DNA of 41,547 nucleotides from a bacterium. GTDB taxonomy: Bacteria; Patescibacteriota; Minisyncoccia; Sungbacterales; HO2-52-23. Numbering within the stretch: the stretch's first letter is position 1; each line of letters opens with the position of its first letter. A model generated the notes under the pieces. That model was not told the origin of the DNA, made no database searches, and saw only the letters and a program-made list of their open reading frames with translations. The position numbers were made by a program, and so were the translations under genes. The stretch covers positions 1-41,547 of the forward strand of contig JAUYPW010000002.1 of assembly GCA_030697525.1 (NCBI GenBank), in the 5' to 3' direction. This document shows, one piece after another, positions 25,239 through 29,800 of this stretch.

Positions 25239-26375
25239 ATGCGAGAAGTTATAAATATCCAATCTCCAGAGGAAGATGAATTAAAAAGATATCTGGAATC
25301 AAAAAACGATCCGGAAAGTTTGCGCATGAAGAGGTTTTTAGCCATGCCGGATCTTTCGCGGACACACGGAAGTCCGCTTTTTGAAATGGTGAATAGAGTA
25401 AAGTCTCTTCCCATTTTCAAAGATTTTGATGATATCAACATCCCCGAAATTGTTCCTGCCAGTGTAAGTTTTGATCTTTTTAATTTTCCGGCAAACCATC
25501 CCGCCCGTTCCAAATCGGATACATATTATGTGAATGATGAAAACATACTTCGCACCCACGATACGGTCTTTTGGTATTACTATCTTGATTTGCCGGAGGT
25601 AAAAGAGCGTATCAAAAAAAATGAGTCGCTCGGAACTCTTTGTTACGGCAAGGTCTATCGAAAGGATGAAATTGACCGCAGACACATGAACATATTTCAC
25701 CAAATGGGCGGCTGGTATATTGTCCCCGACAGTAAAAAAGTTTTAGAACTTGATGATCTCAAAAACGCGCTTTCGGAAATTGTGAAAAGCGTATTTGGCC
25801 CTGACATTGAATATCGTTTTAACAAAGATGAATTTCCGTATACCGATCCTTCTCTTGAAGTTGAAGTAAAGGTGGAGAACGAGTGGGTTGAAATCCTAGG
25901 AGGGGGAATGCCCAGAAAAGAAGTACTCAAAAACTTCGGCTTAGAGGGTTATAACGGCTGGGCTTTTGGTTTTGGTTTAGAAAGATTGGCCATTGTAAGT
26001 ATGGATTTACCAGACATCAGACTGCTCTGGTCCACCGATGAGCGTATAAAAAAACAATTGCGGCTCGGAAACAAATTTAAAGAGGTTTCCAAATTTCCAC
26101 CCATTACCCGCGATATTTCTTTTGTGGTAAAAAAAGATTTTGTACCCAATAATTATTTTGACCTTATACGCGACTTGGGAGGAGATTTGATGGAGGAAGT
26201 AACTTTGCTGGATCATTATGATGACCCCGAAAAATTCGGTTTGGACAAAACGAGTTATACCTACAGAATCGTTTACCGCAGTATCGACCGTACTCTCAAA
26301 ACAGAGGAGATTGAGCCGATTCAGGAAAAAATCATAAGCGAAACCTTCAAGCAGTTTAATGCCGAGATACGATAA
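25239..26375 (+). CDS. Phenylalanine-tRNA ligase of the single-chain (mitochondrial) type
   Basis: 378 residues from ATG 25239 (MREVINIQ). The catalytic part is PheS-like class II: motif 1 region DLFNFPANHPARSKSDTYYV, motif 2 KVYRKDEIDRRHMNIFHQMG, motif 3 GWAFGFGLERLAI. From about residue 286 it has an FDX-ACB domain (PPITRDISFVV, YTYRIVYRSIDRTLKTEEI), which in ordinary bacteria is the C-terminal end of PheT. PheS core plus FDX-ACB in one short chain is the layout of the mitochondrial monomeric enzyme. There is no pheT beside it. It may be the only PheRS or a paralogue; the window cannot tell. No Shine-Dalgarno. Confidence 0.82.
   Translation: MREVINIQSPEEDELKRYLESKNDPESLRMKRFLAMPDLSRTHGSPLFEMVNRVKSLPIFKDFDDINIPEIVPASVSFDLFNFPANHPARSKSDTYYVNDENILRTHDTVFWYYYLDLPEVKERIKKNESLGTLCYGKVYRKDEIDRRHMNIFHQMGGWYIVPDSKKVLELDDLKNALSEIVKSVFGPDIEYRFNKDEFPYTDPSLEVEVKVENEWVEILGGGMPRKEVLKNFGLEGYNGWAFGFGLERLAIVSMDLPDIRLLWSTDERIKKQLRLGNKFKEVSKFPPITRDISFVVKKDFVPNNYFDLIRDLGGDLMEEVTLLDHYDDPEKFGLDKTSYTYRIVYRSIDRTLKTEEIEPIQEKIISETFKQFNAEIR

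Positions 26376-26427: not shown

Positions 26428-29800
<3,373 letters not shown>

Follow-up and report, generated by a model that had tools for sequence, protein, structure and literature searches.

A single-chain phenylalanyl-tRNA synthetase gene beside gyrB

The window (the whole stretch of DNA analysed, 41,547 nucleotides) is the entire contig C19 of a 36-contig draft genome of a CPR/Parcubacteria bacterium (746 kb, 93% complete). An open reading frame on its forward strand runs from an ATG at 25239 to a stop at 26375 and encodes a phenylalanyl-tRNA synthetase (PheRS) of 378 aa. The features of the locus are as follows.

25239–26375, + strand: single-chain PheRS gene, stop included (open reading frame; Pfam, NCBIfam and PDB matches; AlphaFold2 model; Foldseek)
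25239–25358, + strand: N-terminal helical segment, residues 1–40 (AlphaFold2 secondary structure; alignments)
25359–26057, + strand: class II catalytic core, residues 41–273 (PF01409)
25560–25562, + strand: D108, acidic, next to His107 (alignment of 140 sequences)
25659–25709, + strand: motif 2 region R141–G157, RKDEIDRRHMNIFHQMG, with R141, H149 and Q155 kept and Gly157 replacing Glu (alignment)
25833–25844, + strand: Phe-pocket motif F199-P-Y201-T202 (alignment)
25956–25985, + strand: motif 3 region GWAFGFGLER (alignment)
26088–26372, + strand: FDX-ACB anticodon-binding domain, residues 284–378 (PF03147; FDX-ACB tree)
26458–29775, + strand: gyrB with intein; as a conserved neighbour it identifies the locus of pheS-pheT or the single-chain gene in CPR (open reading frame, synteny)

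The layout proposed in the initial annotation, a PheS-like core with a C-terminal FDX-ACB domain in one chain, is borne out by Pfam matches of the 378-aa protein (tRNA-synt_2d, PF01409, residues 41–273, E = 6.6e-53; FDX-ACB, PF03147, residues 284–378, E = 2.5e-22), by an AlphaFold2 model built from 82 sequences (mean pLDDT 95.3) and by Foldseek, in which the seven top matches to that model are all human mtPheRS (5mgv and 3cmq among the best), with TM values of 0.79–0.80 for structures in the closed state and 0.59 for 3tup, which is open and tRNA-bound. Judged from sequence and modelled structure, the product is confirmed as a complete single-chain PheRS combining a PheS-type class II core with a C-terminal FDX-ACB domain. 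Whereas typical bacterial PheS has a separate N-terminal coiled-coil domain, the model and alignments place none in residues 1–40. The closest PDB sequence is human FARS2 (1.8e-59), with bacterial PheS reaching 8.5e-32 at best. Among NCBIfam models the best is TIGR00469 (pheS_mito) at 241.3 bits, below its curated cut-off of 258.35, and we therefore call the protein a sister variant and do not assign it to the mitochondrial family model; a relative, L153, scores 260.8 bits to the same model, and the bacterial pheS model gives the window protein 163 bits.

Like FARS2/MSF1 (PheRS-M, TIGR00469), the window PheRS carries the core and the C-terminal FDX-ACB domain in one chain without beta subunit or editing domain; the two have the same fold (TM about 0.8), share W241 and W264 and fall into one group in trees of the core, of the FDX-ACB domain and of both. 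It differs from FARS2 in being bacterial, chromosomal and situated beside gyrB, is about 31% identical to the human protein, and has FPY instead of FPF, Thr for Ser180 and Asp or Gly for Glu220. With the heterotetrameric pheS+pheT enzyme it shares a homologous core, an FDX-ACB domain homologous to PheT domain B8 and the same slot in CPR genomes, but it lacks the beta subunit, domains B1–B7, the B3/4 editing module and the N-terminal coiled coil, and falls in a separate clade.

Active site

The general class II catalytic residues are retained (motif 2 Arg, the Gln218 equivalent and motif 3 Arg). In the alignment, R141, H149, Q155, F199, A242 and R249 are kept; they align to T. thermophilus R204, H212, Q218, F258, A314 and R321. 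Substitutions in the pocket comprise Y201 for F260, which gives FPY where most bacterial PheS and FARS2 have FPF, T109 for S180 and, at the E220 position, Asp, or else Gly with a new Asp at 108. The D108/G157 pair of the window protein belongs to a reciprocal swap, D/G in one state and T/D in the other, at positions that align to T. thermophilus T179 and E220, and every one of 140 sequences has Asp at exactly one of the two positions. The swap amounts to one change on the tree; repeated covariation was therefore dropped as a reading, and we treat the pair as a clade marker and not as independent evidence. We infer a shift in the position of the acidic residue that faces the amino group of the substrate; with E220 replaced by Gly or Asp and Ser180 by Thr, substrate binding would differ in detail. 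W241 and W264 are invariant in the single-chain form, FARS2 and a phage-encoded enzyme described below, and absent from the sampled PheS and SrmL sequences. The deepest subgroup (L008 and L009, 47–49% identical) lacks one residue of motif 3, which reads GFG-ERLAM or GFG-DRLAM.

The only PheRS found in the genome

No second PheS was found in the host genome, where the sole other PF01409 match (E = 1e-4) is a 432-aa open reading frame that we read as HisRS by inspection rather than from a domain scan. The PheT domains B5 and tRNA_synthFbeta had no match anywhere in the 93% complete draft, nor did the B3_4 editing domain. The initial annotation had made the importance of the gene depend on the absence of a pheS/pheT pair from the genome; searches of the host contigs returned neither partner, and the catalytic residues of the single-chain protein are intact, the reverse of the combination that it had named as a refutation. 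One tRNA-Phe(GAA) gene is present, on contig C8, among 43 tRNA matches of which 30 were typed (Rfam search and DNA query). The product of 25239–26375 is very probably the only PheRS of the cell. A gap in the draft assembly cannot alone account for the missing pheT, since 79 of the 80 single-chain genomes in a set of 286 from this class, including single-contig ones, also lack PheT.

Distribution across CPR

A profile made from seven single-chain proteins retrieved 473 related stretches from GTDB species genomes; among the best 80 of these, those with a taxon in the title belong to Parcubacteria-type CPR and related groups. In 286 genomes of the window's class, the single-chain form occurs in 80 (28%) and the PheT B5 domain in 189, with one genome having both and 18 neither, a mutual exclusion that is highly significant (Fisher p = 1.5e-51). 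Both PheRS types are found within 19 families and three genera (g24, g61 and g115). A sample of the phylum placed the single-chain form outside the class as well (families f107, f121, f132, f146 and f162), with PheST kept by most other CPR. Of the 65 single-chain genomes tested for the B3/4 editing domain, 63 have none.

Several genomes depart from this pattern. The only one with both pheST and a single-chain gene, G065, has them on small contigs (L153/L142) and represents either a transitional state or contamination. The 18 genomes with neither the PheT B5 domain nor a single-chain PheRS include G286 (one contig, 100% complete), G279, G009 and G072, and some of the 18 are near complete. PheST is shrunken in some genomes of the class: G128 (L219, 8342–10284) encodes a PheT of 391 aa without B3/4 and a PheS whose 256 aa leave no room for the N-terminal coiled coil, and PheT open reading frames in family f34 measure about 426–433 aa.

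Replacement of pheST at the gyrB locus

The order pheS-pheT-gyrB, with gyrB downstream on the same strand, was seen at 30 PheST loci. The single-chain gene likewise adjoins gyrB at 113 loci (a few genomes counted twice), lying upstream on the same strand at 82 and divergently at 31. In genus g61, G064 (single-chain) and G246 and G267 (pheST) carry their PheRS genes in the same interval, bounded by a UvrD-like helicase gene and by gyrB; in genus g115, the single-chain gene of G285 and the pheST genes of G128 share an interval bounded by gyrB and a glycosyltransferase gene. The gyrB tree follows taxonomy, and PheRS type flips at least 16 times on it (a quick tree), nine of these changes being forced by well-supported branches. 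The shared gyrB slot together with this number of state changes argues that the single-chain gene has very probably replaced pheST in place repeatedly, by lateral transfer. In the window's own family, the single-chain genes of the window, G003 and G012 do not form one clade (AU p = 3.6e-42), and so they probably arrived separately. The gyrB gene of the window itself contains an in-frame intein (Pfam Intein_splicing, residues about 482–877) between GDSAGG and SSKQGRDRR.

Common ancestry with the mitochondrial enzyme

The initial annotation had also suggested that the gene bears on the origin of the mitochondrial form, and phylogenies including FARS2 uphold this. In the core-only tree, the single-chain form, FARS2, the phage enzyme L189 and SrmL make up one group (support 99/99), with CPR PheS as a separate clade; without SrmL, the group of single-chain form, FARS2 and phage enzyme has 100/100. 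The FDX-ACB-only tree, in which CPR PheT is the only comparison, has the same split (97/83), and the combined core and FDX-ACB tree again unites single-chain form, FARS2 and phage enzyme (100/100). A long branch subtends this group. AU tests on the combined alignment rejected placing the single-chain form with CPR PheST (p = 0.005), FARS2 and the phage enzyme with alphaproteobacterial PheRS (p = 0.004), and these two with ordinary bacterial PheRS (p = 0.0015); on the core alone the corresponding values were 0.197 (single-chain form with CPR PheS), 0.116 and 0.0009, the first two placements not being rejected. The earlier reading of the gene as a reduced bacterial PheRS is supported with one refinement: it is a single chain without PheT, but it is not a reduction of the PheST of its own lineage, as it groups with FARS2 apart from CPR PheS and the combined AU test rejects that origin.

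The phage enzyme L189 (4869–5933 of a 533-kb IMG/VR viral contig) is a single chain and the sister of FARS2, scoring 386 bits to TIGR00469 and 52–53% identical to human FARS2 over aligned columns. It lies outside the CPR clade and is about 38% identical to the window protein; its gene is surrounded by several tRNA genes, an HNH endonuclease and a CysRS-like open reading frame. Among phages and plasmids we found no close copies of the CPR type, only SrmL-type proteins, ordinary PheS and this one FARS2-like gene. The SrmL-type proteins are L192 (2854–3933) on the 635-kb phage LR745206.1 and L190 and L191 on Glutamicibacter and Azotobacter plasmids.

Overall, we consider it highly probable that the window encodes a sole, single-chain PheRS that shares one single-chain ancestor with FARS2 and belongs to a mobile lineage that has repeatedly replaced pheST in place. 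It is hardly credible that the draft missed a pheS-pheT pair and that the single-chain gene is a contaminant: the assembly is fragmented (36 contigs) and 93% complete, but the gene sits within a 41.5-kb contig beside a gyrB whose nearest kin are in the same family, and the same pattern recurs in about 80 genomes, some of them single-contig. We regard it as highly improbable that the protein is a paralogue serving some other function, such as that of an SrmL-like ligase, rather than a housekeeping PheRS. SrmL proteins (PheS-related mystery ligase, NF051887) are likewise single chains with a core and an FDX-ACB-like domain (about 350–370 aa) and fall in the same group in the core tree, the NF051887 score of the window protein (232.6 bits) is close to its pheS_mito score, and some of its pocket positions are unlike standard PheRS. 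That score is nevertheless below the cut-off of 300, whereas L192 and L190, the two SrmL-type proteins scored, reach 423 and 524 bits; SrmL, whose examples in this analysis are on plasmids and a phage, has H-P-Y and other pocket residues that the window protein lacks, and membership was rejected on these two grounds. Moreover, the host has tRNA-Phe yet no other PheRS, and the single-chain form and PheT exclude each other almost perfectly.

A local origin, in which the CPR lineages would each have joined their PheS core to the FDX-ACB domain of PheT, lost the rest and converged on the mitochondrial layout, would suit streamlined CPR genomes, in which reduced PheS and PheT do exist (the 256-aa and 391-aa proteins of G128, the latter without B3/4), and the core-only AU test does not reject it (p = 0.197). 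We nonetheless judge it very unlikely, given that the single-chain sequences all fall in one clade that excludes CPR PheS (99–100% support), that the combined AU test rejects it and that W241, W264 and the FDX-ACB fusion are common to the single-chain group and FARS2. Acquisition of the CPR gene from eukaryotic mitochondrial FARS2, as opposed to derivation of both from a bacterial or phage single-chain lineage, is unlikely, although it has some weight: the two are sisters, and the trees, with their one eukaryotic FARS2 sequence, fit either direction. Against it stand the deep diversity within CPR (47% identity between subgroups, across many families) and the other single-chain members carried by a huge phage and plasmids, which point to a wider prokaryotic pool. 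Returning to a shared single-chain ancestor, we tentatively suggest, at somewhat less than an even chance, that single-chain PheRS arose once and was mobile among bacteria and phages, and that the eukaryotic mitochondrial enzyme was taken from that pool and not from fused alphaproteobacterial PheS and PheT of the endosymbiont.

Significance

According to a 2010 review, prokaryotic PheRS keeps its heterotetrameric organisation in every known species, and the most recent branch is the monomeric enzyme of mitochondria, formed via massive domain loss (PMC3275996); AARS Online lists PheRS-M with FARS2 as the human gene (PMC11580382). In this literature the monomeric form is known from mitochondria only. 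Our search of the open literature, with subscription papers and preprints outside its scope, found no report of single-chain PheRS in CPR bacteria. In a large CPR class, roughly one surveyed genome in four is an exception to the heterotetramer rule and carries a sister of FARS2, and ideas on how the mitochondrial enzyme arose can be tested against this bacterial outgroup. The gyrB locus provides a clear case of an essential two-subunit enzyme repeatedly replaced in place by a one-gene analogue, and the bacteria with the single-chain form, apparently free of editing, are a natural set for the study of Phe/Tyr fidelity.

Proposed mechanism and tRNA-Phe

In the mechanism that we propose, the class II core would activate Phe and the FDX-ACB domain would read the tRNA-Phe anticodon, so that one chain, presumably monomeric and without PheT, would charge tRNA-Phe. 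By analogy with human mtPheRS, a hinged closed-to-open movement may bring FDX-ACB onto G34, and the enzyme would probably have no site for editing Tyr-tRNA. The single-chain lineage has very probably ousted the whole pheS-pheT pair beside gyrB many times in CPR via lateral transfer, and such replacement was probably easy because a single small protein that needs few tRNA determinants can take over with tRNA-Phe left as it was. The tRNA-Phe of G285 (single-chain) is identical to that of G128 (PheST); hence this switch required no new tRNA. Human mtPheRS relies on restricted determinants (anticodon G34, G1-C72 and A73) and accepts a broad range of tRNAs, including bacterial tRNA-Phe (PMC9976931), and the unchanged tRNA across the G285/G128 switch would fit such an enzyme. 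An alteration of tRNA-Phe to suit the single chain was considered and dropped, in view of this identity and as inspection by eye revealed no clear difference between the groups. In two genomes the tRNA-Phe gene is interrupted at the anticodon loop: that of G025 (L316/L330) has a 214-nt intron there (ARAGORN), and that of G101 (L318) is split by a gap of several hundred nucleotides.
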